From Bacteroidetes bacterium HGW-Bacteroidetes-4 (GTDB lineage Bacteria; Bacteroidota; Bacteroidia; Bacteroidales; SZUA-534): a DNA stretch of 64,000 nt. Position 1 is the first letter of the stretch, and each line of letters begins with the position of its first letter. Below the pieces are notes generated by a model, which saw nothing but the letters and a program-made list of their open reading frames with translations, made no database searches and was not told the DNA's origin. Of this stretch, positions 37,784-49,838 are shown one piece after another. The stretch spans positions 1 to 64,000 of the forward strand of contig PHDD01000007.1 in NCBI GenBank assembly GCA_002840905.1. The letters run 5' to 3'. Made by a program: the position numbers and the translations under genes.

Positions 37784-39751
<1,968 letters not shown>

Positions 39752-40206: not shown

Positions 40207-41847
40207 ATGAAGAAAGGCGAAAATTTAAACCTTTCAAAAGATAAGGTATCAACCTCCTGGCAGATTATATTATTCTCATTAAATCAGAATGCCATTGCTC
40301 AGTTTAAGGCGGCTTTTTCTGAAATACCCGAAAATGATACACATTTATCCATTTATCAAACAGATTCTCAAGAGCAATTAATCAGTTTTATAAGAAATAG
40401 TCAAAAAACGTTTCTTAATCTCGATATTTCAGCTATTGAACCCGATAAACAGTTAGCGCTTATTTCCCAAATCAATCATAAAACACGCAGTAAATTTTGT
40501 CATACCATTTTGTGGATAAAACGCAATACACTACCTTTTATAATTGAAAACAAAATTGAATTAGAAGTAAACGACATACGCTTTATCGAAGACTTGTCAC
40601 AGCTTTATGTAAAGTCGGTTTTCAATACCATCTATACCAATTATTTAAATAATTTTAAGTTTGCTGCTAAAGATAAAGACAATCACAATTTGTTTAAAAA
40701 AATTGAACACCTGTCTGATTTCAACAAAAAACTCCTTAAAGCAGTTATCGAAAGCAGTAACATAAAAACAAAACTCACTCAACAGCGCATTGCCATTGAA
40801 CAACAGAATAAGGAAATCGAAGAACGAAATCTTGAACTGGAACGGGCTTTTAAAAAATCAAGCATTAACCACATAAAATTGGAGAAAGCTTTTCACGAAA
40901 ACGAATTACAACGTAAAAAACTTGAAGAATTGCTTAGTGAATTGCAGGAAACCAACCAAAAGCTGGAAACACAATTCCACGAAATTATGGCGCAGCGCGA
41001 TTTTATTGAACAACAAAACGAGGAGATTCAGTCGCAGCGCGATATGGCTTTAAAACAGCGCGATAAAATTGTTGCTCAACAAGAAGAAATAAACGATAAC
41101 ATTCAATATGCCAGTAAGATACAACAGGCACTTTTTCCACAAACAGACTGGGTGAATGTTTTATTGCCCCAGCATTTTGTTTTAAATAGGCCTAAAGACG
41201 TTGTAAGTGGCGATTTTTACTGGATATCGCAAAACCGGCATAAAACAATTATTGCCGTTTCGGATTGTACCGGACATGGTATTTCAGGAGCCATGATGAG
41301 CATGTTGGGAACTGCCTTTTTAAACGAGATTGTAAATAAAAACGACATTACCCATGCTCAGTTAATACTGGAACAATTACGTGAACGAGTTATTTCCAGT
41401 TTGCATCAGGATATTTCTCAAAACATGGAATATTCGCGCGATGGAATGGACATTGCCGTATGCATTTTAGATATTGTAGATAATTCATTGGAATTCGCCG
41501 GAGCCAATAATCCGATTTATATTGTCCGAAATAAAGAACTTATTGAATTCAAGGCCGATAAAATACCCATCGGTATTCATGAATTTTGCAATGAACCTTT
41601 TACTTCACACAGAATTGATGTTCTTCAGGGCGACAATATTTATATGTTTAGCGATGGTTATGCCGATCAGTTTGGAGGAATAAAGGGAAAAAAATTAAAG
41701 TATAACAATTTTAAAAAAATCCTGCTCGAAGTAAATGAACTACCTATTGAGGAACGAGAACAAATTCTTAATAAAAAATTTGTAGATTGGATGGGGCAGC
41801 AGGAACAAATTGACGATGTTTTGGTATTGGGTTTCACGGTAATGTAG
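40207..41847 (+). CDS. Cytoplasmic SpoIIE/PP2C phosphatase with coiled coil
   Basis: A 546-residue Ser/Thr phosphatase with no signal peptide or membrane segment. Residues 1-175 form an unrecognised domain whose WQIILFSLNQNAIAQF start and alternation of strands and helices recall a degenerate receiver. Residues 175-300 are coiled coil (repeated EQQNEEI/QRD heptads). The SpoIIE domain (about 315-546) has metal and catalytic motifs SGDFYW (Asp336), DCTGHG (Asp353), RDGMD, FSDGYADQ (Asp483) and the final DD (536-537). First of three consecutive SpoIIE genes; would dephosphorylate an SpoIIAA- or SiaC-like partner. Confidence 0.9.
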   Translation: MKKGENLNLSKDKVSTSWQIILFSLNQNAIAQFKAAFSEIPENDTHLSIYQTDSQEQLISFIRNSQKTFLNLDISAIEPDKQLALISQINHKTRSKFCHTILWIKRNTLPFIIENKIELEVNDIRFIEDLSQLYVKSVFNTIYTNYLNNFKFAAKDKDNHNLFKKIEHLSDFNKKLLKAVIESSNIKTKLTQQRIAIEQQNKEIEERNLELERAFKKSSINHIKLEKAFHENELQRKKLEELLSELQETNQKLETQFHEIMAQRDFIEQQNEEIQSQRDMALKQRDKIVAQQEEINDNIQYASKIQQALFPQTDWVNVLLPQHFVLNRPKDVVSGDFYWISQNRHKTIIAVSDCTGHGISGAMMSMLGTAFLNEIVNKNDITHAQLILEQLRERVISSLHQDISQNMEYSRDGMDIAVCILDIVDNSLEFAGANNPIYIVRNKELIEFKADKIPIGIHEFCNEPFTSHRIDVLQGDNIYMFSDGYADQFGGIKGKKLKYNNFKKILLEVNELPIEEREQILNKKFVDWMGQQEQIDDVLVLGFTVM

Positions 41848-41978
41848 CACTTTATCAATAAATAACTGCCATTAAACAAATTATGACGGCTGTTTTGCGT
41901 AAAAAAACGTATCGAAAAAGTAGTTTTCCCTTAATTAACTTATCTTTAGTTGGGATTTGGACAGATTTAAAATAGTAT

Positions 41979-43763
41979 ATGATACAAAGCAAAAACATAG
42001 TACCAAAAATAAGCATAGCTTATCTGTTGTTATTGGGCTCATTTTTATTGGTTTCTAATGCATTCTCGCAAACAAAAAAATTACCTGAAGATGTTTACAT
42101 CCAAATAGATAATTTTAAAAATAATGCCATTAAGAACCGAAATCTGGGCAATGACAATGCTGCTGCTACTTACCTGAATAAAATTGCTTACCTCTATTGG
42201 GAGTATTTTATTTATGAAGAAGCGGTTAAATATTTTCATGAAGTGCTTACAATTAATCAAAACTCAGGAAATATTAACGGAACCCAAAACGTGTTGCAAA
42301 ATATCGCCTTTGTTTATTCCGATATGGAACAATACGATAAAGCTATTGAAAACTTTACCAAGCAACTTGAAATTATAAAAACAAAAAACGATAAGCTGAA
42401 ACTAACGGAGTGTTACAGCAATTTAGCACTTACCTATAATAGCAATGCTCAGTACCAGGAGGCTATAAATGTTGCAAATACTGGACTGGAGTTAAGCAAA
42501 AACCTGAATCATTTAAAATTAATGCGTTCATTTTATGGCTCTTTATATGAGAGTTACGAAAAATTAGGCGACGAAAAACAAGCCAAAGCTAACTTTGAAC
42601 TGTATTCATCAATCGACAAACACATTCAACAGCAGTTATTTGCCGAACAACAACTATTAAATAACCAAAAACTGCAGCAGGTTGAAGCACAGAAAAAAGA
42701 AACAGAGCAAGCCCTGGTTAAAACACAGGATACGCTAAAGGAAGTGGAACAGGTAAGTCGTGAAAAACAACTTGAAATTAACCTGTTGAATAGTGAAAAC
42801 GCATTAAAAGAGGCAACGCTTAAACAAGCCGAAGCACGTATGAAAGCCGAGCGACGCTTTATTTATTTTTTATTGTCGGTGGTACTTTTTATAGGAACAC
42901 TTGTGGTATTAATATTTAAACAAAATCAACAAAAAAAACGGGCTAATGCAGTTTTACAAGATTTGAATACTGAAATAGAAAGAAAAAATCAGCAAATTCT
43001 TGACAGTATAAAATACGCCAGCCATATCCAGGAAGCTATTCTGCCTTTTGAGCAAAACTTACAGGCTGATTTTCCCGACTCATTTGTACTTTATAAACCC
43101 CGCGATATTGTTAGCGGTGACTTTTATTGGCATTCGCGATTCGAAAACAAAATATTTGTAGCTGCAATCGACTGTACAGGTCATGGAGTGCCCGGTGCAT
43201 TTATGAGCATGATTGGTAACACACTACTCAACGAAATTGTAAATGAACAACAGGTGCATAATCCGGCCAAAGTGCTAAAACAATTAAACGAAAAAGTAGT
43301 TCTTACCCTAAATCAGGATAATGGTCATGAAGGCTTTAGTGAAGATGGTATGGATATTACTTTTTGCTGTTACCATACCGATACACAGGTTCTGGAACTG
43401 GCATTGGCCAATCATAATGCCTGTATGATTTCTGAAAATAAAACACAAATTGTTGAAGGTGATATTTTTAGTATTGGCGGTAATGTTGGAGTTGATAATA
43501 TAAAATTCAATAATCACAGCTTTAACATAAATGCAACTACCTCATTGTATATGTTTTCTGACGGTTTTCAAGATCAGTTTCGCGGTAGTTCCGGACAAAA
43601 ATATATGGCACCCAGATTTATCCGCCTACTGGAATCATTACAGGATAAGCCTTTTAATCAACACAAAACTCTTTTGGAAAAAGAATACAACGATTGGAAA
43701 GGAAGTAGCCGGCAAATAGACGATGTTTTGGTAATTGGTATTCAGTTATTAAAAAACACATAA
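41979..43763 (+). CDS. TPR-containing membrane SpoIIE/PP2C phosphatase
   Basis: A 594-residue sensor phosphatase. A signal/anchor (1-30, ending AFSQ) precedes periplasmic TPR repeats (about 40-220), a coiled coil (about 215-290), a membrane helix RRFIYFLLSVVLFIGTLVVL (about 290-311), a short coil and a cytoplasmic SpoIIE domain (about 355-594). SGDFYW, DCTGHGVPGAFMS, DGMD, FSDGFQDQ and QIDDVLVIG are all present, so it should be active. The layout parallels TPR histidine kinases with the kinase replaced by a phosphatase. Lies 131 bp after the first phosphatase gene and 10 bp before the third. Confidence 0.92.
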   Translation: MIQSKNIVPKISIAYLLLLGSFLLVSNAFSQTKKLPEDVYIQIDNFKNNAIKNRNLGNDNAAATYLNKIAYLYWEYFIYEEAVKYFHEVLTINQNSGNINGTQNVLQNIAFVYSDMEQYDKAIENFTKQLEIIKTKNDKLKLTECYSNLALTYNSNAQYQEAINVANTGLELSKNLNHLKLMRSFYGSLYESYEKLGDEKQAKANFELYSSIDKHIQQQLFAEQQLLNNQKLQQVEAQKKETEQALVKTQDTLKEVEQVSREKQLEINLLNSENALKEATLKQAEARMKAERRFIYFLLSVVLFIGTLVVLIFKQNQQKKRANAVLQDLNTEIERKNQQILDSIKYASHIQEAILPFEQNLQADFPDSFVLYKPRDIVSGDFYWHSRFENKIFVAAIDCTGHGVPGAFMSMIGNTLLNEIVNEQQVHNPAKVLKQLNEKVVLTLNQDNGHEGFSEDGMDITFCCYHTDTQVLELALANHNACMISENKTQIVEGDIFSIGGNVGVDNIKFNNHSFNINATTSLYMFSDGFQDQFRGSSGQKYMAPRFIRLLESLQDKPFNQHKTLLEKEYNDWKGSSRQIDDVLVIGIQLLKNT

Positions 43764-43773
43764 AGTAATTTGA

Positions 43774-46700
43774 ATGGTAAAAAATACAATTCAATATATT
43801 GTGAGTTTTTTTATTCTAATGCTTTGGGTAGGTTTATTTCAGACTTTTGCCCAAATCGGAAGTCCAATCATTACCAATTATCCTTCCACAACTTTTGGTT
43901 CCACCGCACAAACCTGGGGTATTGTGCAGGATAACAACGGAAATATGTTTTTTGGTACCAATGTAGGTGTTGCTAAGTTTAACGGTTCCGAATGGACTGT
44001 TTATAAAACCCCTTTAAATTCATCAGTACGTTCATTGGCAATAAATAGTAAAGGAATTATTTATGTTGGAGCCACCCGTGAGTTTGGTTTTCTAAAACCC
44101 AATATTCATGGAAAATATGAATACGTTTCACTTTCCGACTCCTTGCCCGCAAAAGATTTTTCGGTCATTCTAAAAACCTTTACCATCGATGATGCTGTTT
44201 ACTTCCTGGCCAATCATCAAAAGATTTTTAAGTACCAACATGGTCTTGTTTCTGAAGTAAAACTGCACAAAATCAGCTATTTTCGTGGTTTTTTAGTAAA
44301 TAAAGAAATATGGCTTACCGATAAGTCATACGGTTTTGCCCGCCTTATAAACGACAGTGTTGTTTTTTACGACAATCCTAAAATCCCCGACGATATTTAT
44401 ACCATCTTACCTATCGACAATGATAAGTTTCTTATTGGTACACTTAAAGAAGGCCTTTTTGAATATGATTTTTTACAAAAAAAATGGGCTAAGTTTCAAA
44501 ACGAAGCCGATAACATGCTTAAAATAGGGAATATTTATCATGCAACCGTTTTAAAAAATGGCGATATTGCTCTGGCAACCTTAAAAAGAGGCGTTTTAAT
44601 AATTTCTGAAGTAGGAAAACTAAAATATATTTTTGATAAGCAGAGTGGTTTAATAAATAATGCAACTTATTTTGTTAGCAACGATGCCCATAACGATTTG
44701 TGGATTGCTCAGGAAAAAGGAATTTCACATTTAGAATTGAGTGTACCATTTAACCGTTTTGGAGTAAATTCAGGCATCGACGGCAATATTCAAAAGCTTA
44801 CTATTTACAACAATAACTTATATTGTGGAACATCGAGCGGAATTTACTACATGCCCATCGATAAAGAAGAACCTTGGAATCACAAAACCTTTCAACAACT
44901 TAGTCCGGAATTAATTTATAACCTCGATTACTGCCAGATACAATTCCCCAATAGCAAACAAAACATTTTATTAGCCTCTTTTTTGCGCGATTTAGCGGTA
45001 GTTTATCCCGATAACCGAATAGAAAGTATTCATAGTATTTATGGCTGTTATTCCATAAGTACTTCTGTTAAACGTCCCGGCAGAATATTTTTAGGAGGAG
45101 CCAATGGGTTAGAAGTCTTGGATCTTTCGTTTGAAAATGGAAAAGTTAAGGTCGAAAAAAGCACGCAACTGACTAAAATGTCTGAATCGATTCGGAAAAT
45201 AATAGCCGTGCCCAATGGTGATTTATGGATTCAGTCGGCTTTTAATTCATTGTTTCGTATTTCGTTCGATGAGCAGGAATCGTTAAGCAATTATCAGGTT
45301 TATAAATATCCGCAATTAAGCAATACCTATCCAGGAATTATTCTGACAGGAATGCATCACTTTAACGGAAAGATTTTTCTTACCTCTAACTTTGGAATTT
45401 TTAGTGCTGACATAGCATTACTTTCATCGGGTAAACAGGCATTTGAACCTGATTTAACCATGGGACTTAATTTTCAGAAAGACCATATTGCGGTTCAGTC
45501 AATGGAAAAAGACGCTTATGGAAATTATTGGTTTGCAAGTTCCATAGGACTGCTGAAGTACGATATTTCAAAAGATGAAATTGTATTGGCTGAATATAAA
45601 AGATTGCAGGGGAGAGCCATCCAGGGAATCCATATTTCAAATCATCTGGGGGTTTCAGTTATTTCTGAAGAAGACATCTTTATATTAAACCAGAATTATC
45701 AAAAAACGCCTGAGTACAATTTTAAAGTTTTTTTTGACGAGGTTGAATTTGGAATGGATTATTTACAACAAAGTTTCGATGGTGTTTTTTCATCAAATTT
45801 CAATTTAAAACAGTCAATACCACACGATCAAAATACTTTTTCGATTAAATTTTCGGCCGCTTTTTTTCAAAAAAGCGAATCCATAACTTACCGTTATATT
45901 TTAGATGGCTTTGAAAAACAATGGAGTGAAGCAAATAAAAGGCAAACGGTAAATTACACCAATTTACCTTCAGGCAAATATGTATTTAAAGTACGGGCCG
46001 AGAATATTTATAATAAAAAGAGTAATCAAGCCGAATTTTCATTTGTAATTATTCCGCCATGGTATCAAAAACCAGTGGCTTTGATAGCCTTCTTTGTTTT
46101 TGTTTTTGGTTTGGTTTGGCTATTTGTTTTCCTTTATACGTTGCGATTAAAAAAGGAAAAAAAGAAATTGCAATCGATTATTAAAGAAGCAATTCATAAA
46201 GAAGAATCGCAAAAGGAAGAGATTGAAAAACAGGCAGGAAAATTGTATTTGGCAAACCTCGAACTTCAGAAACTATCACTGGTAGCCAGTAAAACCGATA
46301 ATGCGGTCAGCATTATGGACTATAATGGTAAAATTGAATGGGTAAACGAGGGCTATACGCGTCTTTTTGGTTTTACTTTTGGAGAAGTTATTCATTCAAA
46401 AACCGATTTATTGGGTGAATTTGCCGATGTAACAATTAACGACATGGTTAATTTATGGTTTGGCGACAGAAAACCCATTATTTTTGAAAACCAAAAAGCA
46501 ACCAAATACGGAACAAAAGTATGGGTACAAACTACTTTAACCCCGGTTCTCAATGAAAATAAACAGGTAAAAAACCTGATTTCCATCGAGACCGATATAT
46601 CGCGCTTAAAATATGCTGAATCTGAAATTGCCTCGCAAAAAGATGAAATAGCCCGGCAACGCGATATAGCCCTCCAGCAACGCGATGCTATTACCAGTCA

Positions 46701-47463
46701 GCAAAAAGAAATTATCGACAGTATTTTATATGCCGAACGGATTCAAAAGGCAGTATTTAATAAAGAATCTGATTTAACAGCAATATTTAAAGATTCGTTT
46801 ATATATGATAAACCCCGCGACATTGTTTCGGGCGATTTCTTTTGGGTTCACGAAGTCGATAATTTAAAAATTCTGGCAGTGGTCGATTCTACAGGACATG
46901 GAATTCCCGGAGCCTTTATGAGTCTTATCGGTTTTACTTTTTTAAACCATATTATAAAGGAAAACGGTATTTTAGAACCCTACCAAATACTGAACTTATT
47001 GCGCGAAAAAGTAATCGCATCGCTTGGGCAAAAAGGCGATGATAATGAGGCTAAAGATGGAATGGATGTATCTATTTGTGTGATTGACACACAAAAAAAG
47101 CAGATTACATACGCAGGCGCTAACAATAAATCGTATTTGGTTAACAGTGAGGGCTTAATAGAGCTTGAAGCCGATAAAATGCCCATCAGTATTTACATTA
47201 CGGCAAAGCAATCTTTTAAACAAAAAATGATTAGTTACCAATCTAACGATGTATTATATATGTTCACCGATGGTTATCCCGATCAGTTTGGTGGGCAGCA
47301 TGGAAAAAAATTCAAATCAAGTCGATTTAAAAAGTTGTTACAAACTATAAGTAAGGAAAATTATAACAATCAGAAAACCATGCTCGACATCGAATTTTTA
47401 CGCTGGAAAGGTGCATTAAATCAGGTAGATGATATACTTATTGTAGGAGTTAATCTGGAATAA
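43774..47463 (+). CDS. Propeller-Y_Y_Y-PAS-SpoIIE sensor phosphatase
   Basis: A 1229-residue transmembrane sensor. Signal peptide (ending FAQ), a two-component-type beta-propeller (about 30-680, with WGIVQDNNGNMFFGT-like blades), a Y_Y_Y domain (about 688-766), a membrane helix (about 768-790), a coiled coil, a PAS domain (about 838-948), a second coil and a SpoIIE/PP2C domain (about 1005-1229) with SGDFFW, DSTGHGIPGAFMS, DGMD, FTDGYPDQ and QVDDILIVG. The periplasmic part is the same kind as in the HTCS at 6943-11193, but the output is a phosphatase. Ends 4 bp from the convergent siaC-like gene. Confidence 0.93.
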   Translation: MVKNTIQYIVSFFILMLWVGLFQTFAQIGSPIITNYPSTTFGSTAQTWGIVQDNNGNMFFGTNVGVAKFNGSEWTVYKTPLNSSVRSLAINSKGIIYVGATREFGFLKPNIHGKYEYVSLSDSLPAKDFSVILKTFTIDDAVYFLANHQKIFKYQHGLVSEVKLHKISYFRGFLVNKEIWLTDKSYGFARLINDSVVFYDNPKIPDDIYTILPIDNDKFLIGTLKEGLFEYDFLQKKWAKFQNEADNMLKIGNIYHATVLKNGDIALATLKRGVLIISEVGKLKYIFDKQSGLINNATYFVSNDAHNDLWIAQEKGISHLELSVPFNRFGVNSGIDGNIQKLTIYNNNLYCGTSSGIYYMPIDKEEPWNHKTFQQLSPELIYNLDYCQIQFPNSKQNILLASFLRDLAVVYPDNRIESIHSIYGCYSISTSVKRPGRIFLGGANGLEVLDLSFENGKVKVEKSTQLTKMSESIRKIIAVPNGDLWIQSAFNSLFRISFDEQESLSNYQVYKYPQLSNTYPGIILTGMHHFNGKIFLTSNFGIFSADIALLSSGKQAFEPDLTMGLNFQKDHIAVQSMEKDAYGNYWFASSIGLLKYDISKDEIVLAEYKRLQGRAIQGIHISNHLGVSVISEEDIFILNQNYQKTPEYNFKVFFDEVEFGMDYLQQSFDGVFSSNFNLKQSIPHDQNTFSIKFSAAFFQKSESITYRYILDGFEKQWSEANKRQTVNYTNLPSGKYVFKVRAENIYNKKSNQAEFSFVIIPPWYQKPVALIAFFVFVFGLVWLFVFLYTLRLKKEKKKLQSIIKEAIHKEESQKEEIEKQAGKLYLANLELQKLSLVASKTDNAVSIMDYNGKIEWVNEGYTRLFGFTFGEVIHSKTDLLGEFADVTINDMVNLWFGDRKPIIFENQKATKYGTKVWVQTTLTPVLNENKQVKNLISIETDISRLKYAESEIASQKDEIARQRDIALQQRDAITSQQKEIIDSILYAERIQKAVFNKESDLTAIFKDSFIYDKPRDIVSGDFFWVHEVDNLKILAVVDSTGHGIPGAFMSLIGFTFLNHIIKENGILEPYQILNLLREKVIASLGQKGDDNEAKDGMDVSICVIDTQKKQITYAGANNKSYLVNSEGLIELEADKMPISIYITAKQSFKQKMISYQSNDVLYMFTDGYPDQFGGQHGKKFKSSRFKKLLQTISKENYNNQKTMLDIEFLRWKGALNQVDDILIVGVNLE

Positions 47464-47467
47464 TTGT

Positions 47468-47842
47468 TTATTCGTAGGGAAGTAATTCAATATTTGCCTT
47501 TATCAGTTTTGCAAAACGCAAACCTGAGGCCATAATATCAGCGTCTTCAACATAATAATGCCAGTTTACTTTTATGTCGAATTTTTGAGTCATTTGCTGT
47601 AATTGAATCAATAATTTGGTAATTTGTTTTGCCGATGCCGTATTAAAGTAATCCAGTTTAAAATCGAAAGTAAATCCTTTATTTTCTGTATTTTCATATT
47701 GCTTTAACCATTCAAGAATCGGATTATAAAAAGCCACAGCATTTTCAGGAAGGGAGCGTCCTTCGATGCTGAAAATCCCAATTTCGGGTTCAAAGTGAAC
47801 TTTAGGTGTATCTTCAGTATGTTCTATTATTAGTTTTTCCAT
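47468..47842 (-). CDS. SiaC-like regulatory phosphoprotein (DUF1987)
   Basis: A 124-residue protein matching DUF1987/SiaC: FEPEIGIFSIEGRSLPENAVAFYNPILEWL and DYFNTASAKQITKLL. In Pseudomonas SiaC is phosphorylated on Thr68 by the kinase SiaB and dephosphorylated by the PP2C protein SiaA. With the ATG at 47842, Thr68 falls exactly in YFNTAS here, which supports both the assignment and that start; an upstream TTG overlaps the previous gene. It begins 7 bp after the SiaB-like stop and is convergent with the SpoIIE cluster. The downstream target is unknown; no diguanylate cyclase is in the window. Confidence 0.87.
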   Translation of the reverse strand: MEKLIIEHTEDTPKVHFEPEIGIFSIEGRSLPENAVAFYNPILEWLKQYENTENKGFTFDFKLDYFNTASAKQITKLLIQLQQMTQKFDIKVNWHYYVEDADIMASGLRFAKLIKANIELLPYE

Positions 47843-47849
47843 TGTTTGG

Positions 47850-48974
47850 TTAGTCAACTACTGTTTGTAAAACAAAAAAACTAAATTTTTCGTTAAAATC
47901 ATTGATTTCGAAGGTTAATTTACGATTTGTTTTTAACCTCAATTCAATCAAGCCCAAACCGGCTTCTTTACTGGTATCAATCTGAAAATTAAAAAGACTT
48001 TTTTCATAAAATGTATTTAATTCATCCATTGAGAGTGAATTAACGTAATTAATTTTCTTTTTTAAATTTTCAACCTCGCTTTTGTATATGTAATTGCCCG
48101 TATTCAGGTGGTATTGTTTGCCTTTTTGATTGATAAAGAAGATACCCGGATTCAGATTGTTGTCTAAACTGTTTGCTCCGTGCTTTACAATATTCTGAAG
48201 CATCTCAACCATAATGTTAAACACCTTCTTTTTCAAGTTCAGATTGTGTTCCATCATCTGGTTTTCCATAATCGACAACAAATTCAACAAACTTTCCTGG
48301 TTAAAAATTCCGTTGAAAATAAGAACCACATCTTCCTGATTAAGCAGGCGGTGAATTACTTTAATGTTTTCGAGTGCATGGGTAGCTTTGTGAACTTCAG
48401 GGCTATGTTCGGTTTCGTTTTGCGAAATTTCGGTATTTAAATAAAAGTAAGAATAGTTATCGTTCAAATCAACAAAGTCGTAAACCAGTTTATTTCCTGA
48501 TTTACGGGCCATTTCAATTAAACCTAGCCCGGCACCGCCTTTGTCTGAAATGATATTGTCGTTAAGTACTCTTTTGTAGTAATTTTTTAATTCTTCGTTA
48601 TCTAAACTATTAATTTTATTCAGTTGCTCGGTAAGGTTGGGAATGTTTCTTTTTAAGATAGGGTTTCCGGTAGTAATATAGTAGCGGTTGTCGACATCCT
48701 GAATTAAGAAAATTCCGGTTTCTTTAACATCAGAACTTTCTTCCATTTCCTGATGCCGGGTAATGTTCTGTAAACCTTCTACCATAATGGTAAACACTCT
48801 TTTTTTAATCTTCGAATCTTCTCCTGACTTATCAAGGTTCGATTCGGTTAGCGTTAAAATACCATCGGTAATATTCTGACTGAATACACCACGGTAAATG
48901 TAGCTCAGGTTATCCTTCTGCATTCCTTCAAATAACCGGTAAGCATAACTTATTTCTGAATGTTGGGTAGCCAT
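47850..48974 (-). CDS. Tandem SiaB-like HATPase protein (internal duplication)
   Basis: A 374-residue protein with two SiaB-like halves about 191 residues apart. The N-box is VEGLQNITRH (Glu66, Asn70) in half 1 and VEMLQNIVKH (Glu257, Asn261) in half 2; the glycine loop is GGAGLGLIEMARKSG (146-160) and EAGLGLIELRLKTN (337-350). Other matching blocks are GIFLIQ/GIFFIN and INSLDNEEL/VNSLSMDEL. Known SiaB is a single ~180-residue kinase of SiaC. Both halves keep the ATP-site Asn, so both may be active. I chose the ATG at 48974; a TTG nine codons upstream is the alternative. Probably an operon with siaC, and perhaps dapF. Confidence 0.83.
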   Translation of the reverse strand: MATQHSEISYAYRLFEGMQKDNLSYIYRGVFSQNITDGILTLTESNLDKSGEDSKIKKRVFTIMVEGLQNITRHQEMEESSDVKETGIFLIQDVDNRYYITTGNPILKRNIPNLTEQLNKINSLDNEELKNYYKRVLNDNIISDKGGAGLGLIEMARKSGNKLVYDFVDLNDNYSYFYLNTEISQNETEHSPEVHKATHALENIKVIHRLLNQEDVVLIFNGIFNQESLLNLLSIMENQMMEHNLNLKKKVFNIMVEMLQNIVKHGANSLDNNLNPGIFFINQKGKQYHLNTGNYIYKSEVENLKKKINYVNSLSMDELNTFYEKSLFNFQIDTSKEAGLGLIELRLKTNRKLTFEINDFNEKFSFFVLQTVVD

Positions 48975-49052: not shown

Positions 49053-49838
49053 TTAATCGAGCAGGTAAGTTCCCGTAAAAGTTTTTTTTGTTGGTCCCTC
49101 TAACCAGATATCTGTGTAGTTGTTTGCATCCTTTTTACTAAAATGTACTTTAAGTAGTCCACCTTTTGCCTGCAGTGTTACTGGCGATGAATTTCCAAAT
49201 AGCTGATTCAAAGTAAGTGCAGTTGCTACAGTTCCTGTACCACAGGAGTAAGTTTCATCTTCAACACCACGCTCGTAGGTAAAAATTTTTGTGATGTTTT
49301 GCTTGACCTGAAAAAAGTTAACATTAACTCCTTCTGCTTTGTACTTTTTCTCATTTCGTATTTTTCTTCCTTCAGTATAGACATTAAAAGTTGTTTGTTT
49401 ACTTTTGTCAATTACCAGATGAGGAGAACCTGTATTAATAAACAATCCCAAATCATGTGGTTCAATATCGGTAACATCGGCCATTTTAAGTGAAATTTTG
49501 TCAGCACTTTCATAAATGGCCTTATGTGGACCATCGGGTGCAAAAAATCGGGTTTCATTTTTTATAAGTCCCAAATCATGTGCAAAAGATACAATACATC
49601 GTCCGCCATTGCCACACATACTTCCGGGCTTTCCATCAGAATTGTAAAAATCCATAAAAAAATCAAAACCTTCTTTTCGTCGAAGTACAATTAAACCATC
49701 GGCACCAATTCCATACCTTCGGTGGCACATAGTTTGTATGGCTTGTTCGCTGAGTTCAATCGATTTGTTAAAAGCGTTTATTAGAATAAAATCGTTTCCC
49801 GTTCCATGATATTTTGAAAAAGCAATTTCTTGGGTCAT
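49053..49838 (-). CDS. dapF: Diaminopimelate epimerase
   Basis: A 261-residue cofactor-free epimerase that converts LL- to meso-diaminopimelate for lysine and peptidoglycan synthesis. The two catalytic cysteines are Cys75 in SMCGNGGRC and Cys199 in TYSCGTGTVA; FSKYHGTGNDFI is the usual N-terminus. It lies 78 bp upstream of the SiaB-like gene on the same strand. A -7 TACATTTG at 49879-49886 is the likely promoter, which may also serve siaB-siaC. Confidence 0.96.
   Translation of the reverse strand: MTQEIAFSKYHGTGNDFILINAFNKSIELSEQAIQTMCHRRYGIGADGLIVLRRKEGFDFFMDFYNSDGKPGSMCGNGGRCIVSFAHDLGLIKNETRFFAPDGPHKAIYESADKISLKMADVTDIEPHDLGLFINTGSPHLVIDKSKQTTFNVYTEGRKIRNEKKYKAEGVNVNFFQVKQNITKIFTYERGVEDETYSCGTGTVATALTLNQLFGNSSPVTLQAKGGLLKVHFSKKDANNYTDIWLEGPTKKTFTGTYLLD

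Follow-up and report, generated by a model that had tools for sequence, protein, structure and literature searches.

We analyzed positions 40207 to 48974 of a 64,000-nucleotide stretch of contig PHDD01000007.1 from Bacteroidetes bacterium HGW-Bacteroidetes-4 (the whole stretch is referred to as the window). In this region, three genes for SpoIIE/PP2C phosphatases (SpoIIE-1, SpoIIE-2, and SpoIIE-3) face a gene pair coding for a SiaC/DUF1987 protein (siaC) and a fused tandem SiaB-family kinase (siaB2). These five genes probably form a SiaABC-type partner switch that operates by threonine phosphorylation, is not wired to cyclic di-GMP (c-di-GMP), and serves as one channel of a genome-wide network. 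The evidence observed comprises homology, conserved motifs, co-occurrence, synteny, and the absence of GGDEF genes.

Genes were identified from a listing of open reading frames (ORFs) and by profile searches with Pfam and NCBIfam. The resulting coordinates bore out an earlier note, made from the sequence alone, in which three successive SpoIIE/PP2C genes were placed 4 bp from a convergent siaC-tandem siaB pair. The spacing within the SpoIIE series is 131 bp between SpoIIE-1 and SpoIIE-2 and 10 bp between SpoIIE-2 and SpoIIE-3, and Pfam places the SpoIIE domain at the C terminus of each protein. A motif scan detected SGDF, DxTGHG, DG(F/Y)xDQ, and QxDD in all three phosphatases, in agreement with the intact catalytic aspartates that the note had stated. 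The homology to SiaA, SiaB, and SiaC was confirmed by sequence searches of solved structures, where the best match of each of the five proteins was a Sia protein. The PP2C domain of SiaA (6k4e) was the sole PDB sequence match of SpoIIE-1 (4.4e-31) and the best match of SpoIIE-2 (4.3e-26) and SpoIIE-3 (3.8e-31). SiaC matched Pseudomonas SiaC (6kko/6k4f, 1e-9), and SiaB2 matched SiaB of the Pseudomonas SiaB-SiaC complex (6kko, 1e-8). Predicted models pointed in the same direction: 6k4e was the best fold for SpoIIE-1 (Z 23.0; root mean square deviation [rmsd] 3.4; 233 residues aligned), and SiaB of 6kko was the best for the SiaB model, in its half 1 (Z 18.9, rmsd 2.5, 167 residues), followed by SpoIIAB/RsbW-type kinases (Z about 11 to 12.6). 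The Thr68 that the note had assigned to the SiaC-like protein falls exactly in Y65-F-N67-T68, the YxNT context common to Pseudomonas SiaC, whose corresponding segment reads LLYLNTSSIK (PMC7647112). The window SiaB and SiaC reached the curated family cut-offs of PF19788, NF038262, and PF09345, and SiaB passed that of the subfamily model SiaB_fam_kinase (271 versus 85). However, the NCBIfam equivalog cut-offs were missed (SiaA, 185, 169, and 166 of 700 bits; SiaB, 117.6 of 225; SiaC, 71.2 of 150). The five proteins therefore belong to the Sia families without ranking as SiaABCD orthologues under the criteria of the curators.

The note had also reported that no GGDEF gene is present. This was borne out and extended: PF00990 had no match across the whole genome, which is 100% complete, while 8 of 14 control genomes were positive. 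Distribution was studied in 247 genomes across the phylum and in 149 genomes drawn evenly from the same order. SiaC was detected in 14 of the former and 63 of the latter, with a maximum of 21 copies. GGDEF was absent from 62 of the 63 SiaC-positive genomes of the order, the single hit (G311) being in a 680-contig assembly. The possibility that GGDEF was overlooked in an incomplete genome was rejected on the basis of the completeness and of this recurrent absence. Since GGDEF is rare across the order sample (5/149) and not associated with SiaC (Fisher, 0.40), the lack of GGDEF characterizes the order and is not caused by SiaC. The note had suggested surveying SpoIIE, DUF1987, and SiaB for co-occurrence together with the lack of GGDEF. 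Among the 149 genomes, SiaB was found in 63/63 SiaC-positive and 1/86 SiaC-negative genomes (Fisher, 8e-42, kinship ignored). Within the SiaC-positive set, SiaC copy number tracks both SiaB (rho, 0.87) and SpoIIE (rho, 0.73). The median number of SpoIIE proteins was 20 with SiaC and 1 without; the numbers in SiaC-positive genomes are first-look candidates scored to about 20 per genome (in the own genome, 27 candidates gave 27 matches). The separation is robust to this way of counting because SiaC-negative genomes never had more than 5 matches.

Profile searches of the own genome detected 13 SiaC proteins, 5 SiaB genes with 6 SiaB domains between them, and 27 matches to SpoIIE. Most of the siaC genes are orphans. 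In the SiaC tree, almost every one of the 13 proteins pairs with one from G377, and most pair with one from G264 as well; these two genomes represent different genera of the family. The tree needs 13 separate origins to account for the copies. The SiaC paralogues are therefore older than the genera and not recent copies. In 41 SiaC proteins from three genera, position 68 is Ser/Thr and position 65 is Tyr without exception, and Asn67 is kept in 38. The note had envisaged three phosphatases that integrate three signals on one phosphoprotein. Read as a self-contained circuit of the locus, this was not supported: with 13 SiaC proteins, 5 SiaB genes, and 23 SiaA-type phosphatases in the genome, the network is many-to-many, and the propeller and receiver-coil phosphatases are absent from several relatives. 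That three signals meet on one phosphoprotein is something we infer. Several orphan siaC genes retain their neighbors across relatives. For example, an orphan siaC with Ser replacing Asn67 lies between phenylalanyl-tRNA-synthetase-like and rhomboid-like genes (named by eye) in three genera (L020, L113, and L118). Among other arrangements, a siaB-siaC pair is convergent with a gene for a DUF4407 membrane protein at L016:8918-11102, and a run of siaC-siaC-siaB-siaB-siaC followed by TerB-ABC (described below) occurs at L047:9073-11473, in a more distant Bacteroidota genome.

The phosphatases could in principle act on classical STAS anti-anti-sigma factors instead of SiaC, and the own genome does contain four small STAS ORFs and an RsbU-RsbW-RsbV-like set at C20. 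Relationships were examined in a tree of 64 catalytic domains, in which sampling outside the own genome is tied to siaB loci and from which two C40 SpoIIE proteins without the usual motif were left out. The C20 phosphatase and one more (C9) form a distant, separate RsbU-like branch, whereas the other 23 of the own genome are SiaA-type and outnumber the STAS proteins. Furthermore, SpoIIE numbers climb with SiaC copy number across genomes, and SiaA is the best PP2C match of all three window phosphatases; the PDB sequence matches listed for them include neither an RsbU nor a SpoIIE chain. Based on the phosphatase tree, the STAS counts, and the copy-number correlation, STAS proteins as main substrates were rejected, and we consider this explanation very improbable.

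The three phosphatases carry different input domains. Hydropathy analysis revealed a signal segment and a single transmembrane (TM) helix in SpoIIE-2 (aa 295 to 313) and in SpoIIE-3 (aa 768 to 786), which places the tetratricopeptide repeats (TPRs) of the former and the propeller of the latter in the periplasm. The periplasmic part of SpoIIE-3 matched a Bacteroides hybrid two-component sensor (4a2l, 4.5e-19) in the sequence search of solved structures. No TM helix was detected by hydropathy in SpoIIE-1, which consists of a receiver-like domain (aa 17 to 150), a coiled coil of about 120 residues (aa 189 to 309), and the PP2C domain (aa 313 to 546). Thus, the periplasmic TPR and propeller inputs named in the note stand, but the protein it described as having a cytoplasmic coil also has an N-terminal receiver-like domain. 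In an AlphaFold model of modest quality (alignment of 4 sequences; mean predicted local distance difference test [pLDDT], 68), residues 18 to 150 of SpoIIE-1 follow the order E-H-E-H-E-H-E-H-E-H, that is, (beta-alpha)5. Foldseek ranked SiaA and, just beneath it, RssB (receiver-coil-PP2C; alignment over residues 16 to 546), with isolated receiver-like domains lower. The beta-1 acidic pair of true receivers is missing, and D73, at the end of beta-3, is invariant in four relatives. We read this domain as a degenerate receiver.

In the 64-domain tree, the three window phosphatases lie on separate branches, and each clusters with its positional counterpart in relatives. This ruled out three recent tandem duplicates; judged by their sequences, they are non-sister paralogues. 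Relatives L029, L030, L033, and L034 also have the order dapF-siaB2-siaC-convergent SpoIIE(s)-gyrB, and the arrangement in the window is therefore more than chance. L029 has all three phosphatases in the same order, L030 (whose tandem SiaB is 79% identical, in the same synteny) and L033 have two of the three, and L034 and L066 have the TPR phosphatase only. L031 is partial, with the TPR phosphatase, a propeller protein without a detected SpoIIE domain, and no gyrB. An independent array of five SpoIIE genes surrounds siaB2-siaC in L052 (G279); L054 is also a multi-phosphatase locus, and L061 has one SpoIIE.

SpoIIE-2 belongs to an 11-member clade (support, 100/98) whose sampled members adjoin siaB2-siaC in four families. 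In the own genome, where sampling was independent of siaB, it is the only gene in this TPR-phosphatase clade. From these sequence relationships, SpoIIE-2 is the conserved partner within the locus. It could be argued that it is the only phosphatase working on the local SiaC and that the receiver-coil and propeller enzymes act mainly on other SiaC proteins: SpoIIE-2 alone has such a clade, and some relatives keep the TPR protein by itself (L034 and L066) or two enzymes (L030 and L033). On the other hand, L029 retains all three in order, L052 independently has five phosphatases, and the clade sampling outside the own genome is tied to siaB loci. We regard this division of labor as unlikely.

The kinase gene codes for two SiaB domains. 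The halves of 37 tandem or fused SiaB proteins form two separate tree groups (support, 100/100 and 96/77), which indicates that the tandem SiaB goes back to a single ancient fusion. The motif KGGAGLG is present in half 1 of all 37 tandems, and GGAGLG is found in most stand-alone SiaB proteins. Half 2 has lost the lid glycines in nearly all 37 (KEAGLG, KESGLG, or KKSGLG) and has retained the N-box Glu (36/37) and Asn (37/37). The simplest reading of these motifs is a canonical kinase joined to a divergent half, the latter possibly a pseudokinase or a regulatory domain. Five genomes (L072 to L076) encode the tandem SiaB and SiaC as a single chain of 505 to 519 aa (order SiaB-SiaB-SiaC in L072). 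The SiaC proteins beside tandem SiaB fall in a supported clade (98/92) that holds 24 of 26 tandem-linked rows and includes the five fusions. The common clade and the gene fusions are strong evidence that the tandem SiaB and the window class of SiaC are a cognate kinase-substrate pair. The features of the locus are listed in Table 1.

Table 1. Positions of the genes, domains, and flanking features of the siaC-siaB2 locus in the window
Feature	Position	Strand	Evidence or remark
SpoIIE-1	40207..41847	+	Pfam SpoIIE, E 3.6e-19; receiver-like, coiled coil, SiaA-type PP2C
Receiver-like (pseudo-REC) input domain of SpoIIE-1	40255..40656	+	Predicted model, low depth, pLDDT about 50-80
SpoIIE-2	41979..43763	+	Pfam SpoIIE, E 1.6e-17; signal segment, TPRs, TM helix, SiaA-type PP2C
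SpoIIE-3	43774..47463	+	Pfam SpoIIE, E 2.1e-13; signal segment, Reg_prop propeller, Y_Y_Y, TM helix, PAS, SiaA-type PP2C
Gap, SpoIIE-3 stop to convergent siaC stop	47464..47467		4 bp
siaC, SiaC/DUF1987 family, 124 aa	47468..47842	-	Pfam PF09345, 4.4e-35; Thr68 codon 47641-47639
siaB2, fused tandem SiaB-family kinase, 374 aa	47850..48974	-	Two DUF6272/SiaB domains, 6e-71
SiaB half 2	47853..48395	-	ExxQN kept; lid glycines replaced, KEAGLG
SiaB half 1, canonical kinase half	48426..48956	-	E75, N79, KGGAGLG (numbered from TTG start)
Alternative siaB2 start, TTG	49001	-	+9 aa
dapF, upstream neighbor of siaB2, co-directional, conserved	49053..49838	-	Synteny
gyrB, flank opposite to dapF, conserved	37790..39751	+	Synteny

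Candidate outputs were found among the recurrent neighbors of siaBC genes in other loci. The commonest encodes a protein, here called TerB-ABC, that is about 1,020 aa long and combines a TerB-like domain at its N terminus with an ABC ATPase and an ABC-2 membrane domain. With its N-terminal 255 aa as the query (E ≤ 1e-25), it was detected in 57/63 SiaC-positive and 0/86 SiaC-negative genomes (Fisher, 9e-35, kinship again ignored). A conserved operon of the form cheR-(cheR)-cheB-GAF-like-SpoIIE(GAF/PAS)-siaB-siaC-TerB-ABC-lipoprotein occurs in many families (L010, L046, L077 to L081, L086, L087, and L091). In L055, a siaB2-siaC pair of the window class lies directly upstream of a cheRRB-SpoIIE-siaB-siaC-TerB-ABC operon, with a siaC-cheR gap of 94 bp, and TerB-ABC is convergent to other siaBC pairs in L009, L141, and L145. 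TerB-ABC-ABC2 membrane proteins are the most likely target class for SiaC. In the operon at L010:6294-16053 and its relatives, CheR/CheB stand beside a partner switch, and no other chemotaxis genes were seen nearby. At C20 (L024:3658-9854), genes for an RsbU-type TPR-SpoIIE, a 142-aa RsbW-like protein, and a STAS protein are convergent with another TerB-ABC-ABC2 gene, as though partner switches shared TerB-ABC proteins as a target. In L035 to L042 and L051, siaB (mostly tandem, with or without siaC) adjoins or lies close to a gene for polyprenyl synthetase, with no adjacent siaC found in L040 to L042; polyprenyl synthetase was rejected as an output, as it adjoins only in the L035-L042 branch and L051.

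A second candidate output is a class III adenylate/guanylate cyclase. An orphan siaB directly precedes a gene for a PAS-PAS-class III cyclase (PF00211, 5e-50) in the own genome (C41; L021:7317-9788) and, within the family, in two further genera (L089 and L090). Accordingly, a second messenger could be the output, with SiaC or SiaB controlling such a cyclase in place of a diguanylate cyclase. Partner switches do control cyclases (SiaD, and HsbD and BgrR as cited in PMC8457831), but the cyclase-linked siaB has no siaC next to it, the pair was seen in this one family only (4 cyclase genes in about 115 loci), and nothing ties it to the window SiaC. We find this alternative quite unlikely.

In Pseudomonas, it is the unphosphorylated form of SiaC that binds its partner and activates it, and phosphorylation of T68 prevents the binding (PMC7647112, PMC8457831). 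By analogy, the tandem SiaB would keep SiaC phosphorylated on Thr68 through half 1, while half 2, possibly a pseudokinase, might dock SiaC or regulate half 1. Each of the three SiaA-type PP2Cs, gated by the periplasmic TPR sensor, the propeller-PAS sensor, or the receiver-like/coiled-coil module, would remove the phosphate from SiaC upon its signal, and dephosphorylated SiaC would bind a partner encoded elsewhere. Several phosphatases on one SiaC would constitute an OR gate, and the locus would be one channel among the 13 SiaC proteins, 5 SiaB genes, and 23 SiaA-type phosphatases.

Several observations weigh against the proposed switch. No output is encoded in the window itself, the partner of the window SiaC not being at the locus. 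The window phosphatases may also serve the 12 other SiaC proteins of the genome, or may not serve the window SiaC. The co-occurrence statistics ignore phylogeny. TerB-ABC might mark a lineage, and many of its genes are without a Sia neighbor. The idea of a pseudokinase derives from motif loss, and with Glu and Asn of the N-box kept, half 2 may be active. Finally, the joint conservation of phosphatase and siaBC groups, on which the note had staked its proposal, holds within the family and in three further families, but the linkage is not universal: beyond the family, SpoIIE is missing next to most siaB2-siaC pairs (L035 to L039, L053, L056, L059, L060, and L067 to L071).

DUF1987 proteins have been described as widespread and suggested to modulate adjacent proteins (PMC8457831). 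Our literature search, for which subscription papers were largely outside reach, found nothing joining SiaB or SiaC to Bacteroidota. The description of the system as undescribed is therefore appropriate for the Bacteroidota branch as far as the literature was searched, although the partner-switch principle is already known. What is new is an enlarged network of SiaABC partner switches that does without GGDEF and includes a fused kinase with a divergent second half, and it looks like a widespread, unstudied signaling network rather than a biofilm module. The only SiaC output described in the literature found is the activation of a diguanylate cyclase. Because a large part of the order has many SiaC copies without a diguanylate cyclase, c-di-GMP control cannot be the general function of SiaC. 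We tentatively propose that many Bacteroidales possess a c-di-GMP-independent Ser/Thr partner-switch network in which SiaC gates TerB-ABC proteins (in places, class III cyclases) and the tandem kinase-pseudokinase is the cognate kinase of the window SiaC class. If this is true, the network would comprise up to 21 SiaC proteins, 18 SiaB domains, and dozens of SiaA-type phosphatases per genome, a parallel signaling layer with dozens of periplasmic sensors. Together, the data point to an unstudied Ser/Thr phospho-signaling layer with many periplasmic sensors in Bacteroidales. TerB-ABC proteins and the class III cyclase are testable partners, and structural work could start directly from the tandem kinase, with its divergent half, and from the SiaB-SiaB-SiaC fusions.

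The locus shares with SiaABC(D) of Pseudomonas aeruginosa (PMC7647112, PMC8457831) a SiaA-type PP2C, a SiaB-type GHKL kinase, and SiaC with Thr68, and reversible Thr phosphorylation would be expected to govern partner binding here as well. In contrast to that system, the own genome has no SiaD or any other GGDEF protein, and in place of one HAMP membrane protein there are three phosphatases, whose inputs are TPR, propeller-PAS, and receiver-like. The tandem kinase with its divergent second half, the 13 SiaC proteins of the genome, and the convergent gene order also set it apart. The RsbU/RsbV/RsbW and SpoIIE/SpoIIAA/SpoIIAB switches likewise combine a PP2C phosphatase, a GHKL kinase, and a small STAS-like phosphoprotein, and SiaB half 1 has the SpoIIAB/RsbW fold. 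However, the substrate here is SiaC/DUF1987, for which Pfam gave a SiaC match only and none to the STAS family, no sigma factor is encoded among the five genes of the locus, and the genome has its separate RsbU-RsbW-RsbV-like set at C20. SpoIIE-1 has the domain order of RssB of Pseudomonas (receiver-coil-PP2C), but its catalytic domain is closest to SiaA and its receiver-like domain lacks the beta-1 acidic pair. The periplasmic propeller and Y_Y_Y domain of SpoIIE-3 resemble those of Bacteroides hybrid two-component sensors (4a2l and 3v9f); in SpoIIE-3 this input is joined to PAS-PP2C, whereas in the hybrid sensors it is joined to a histidine kinase-receiver-AraC module.

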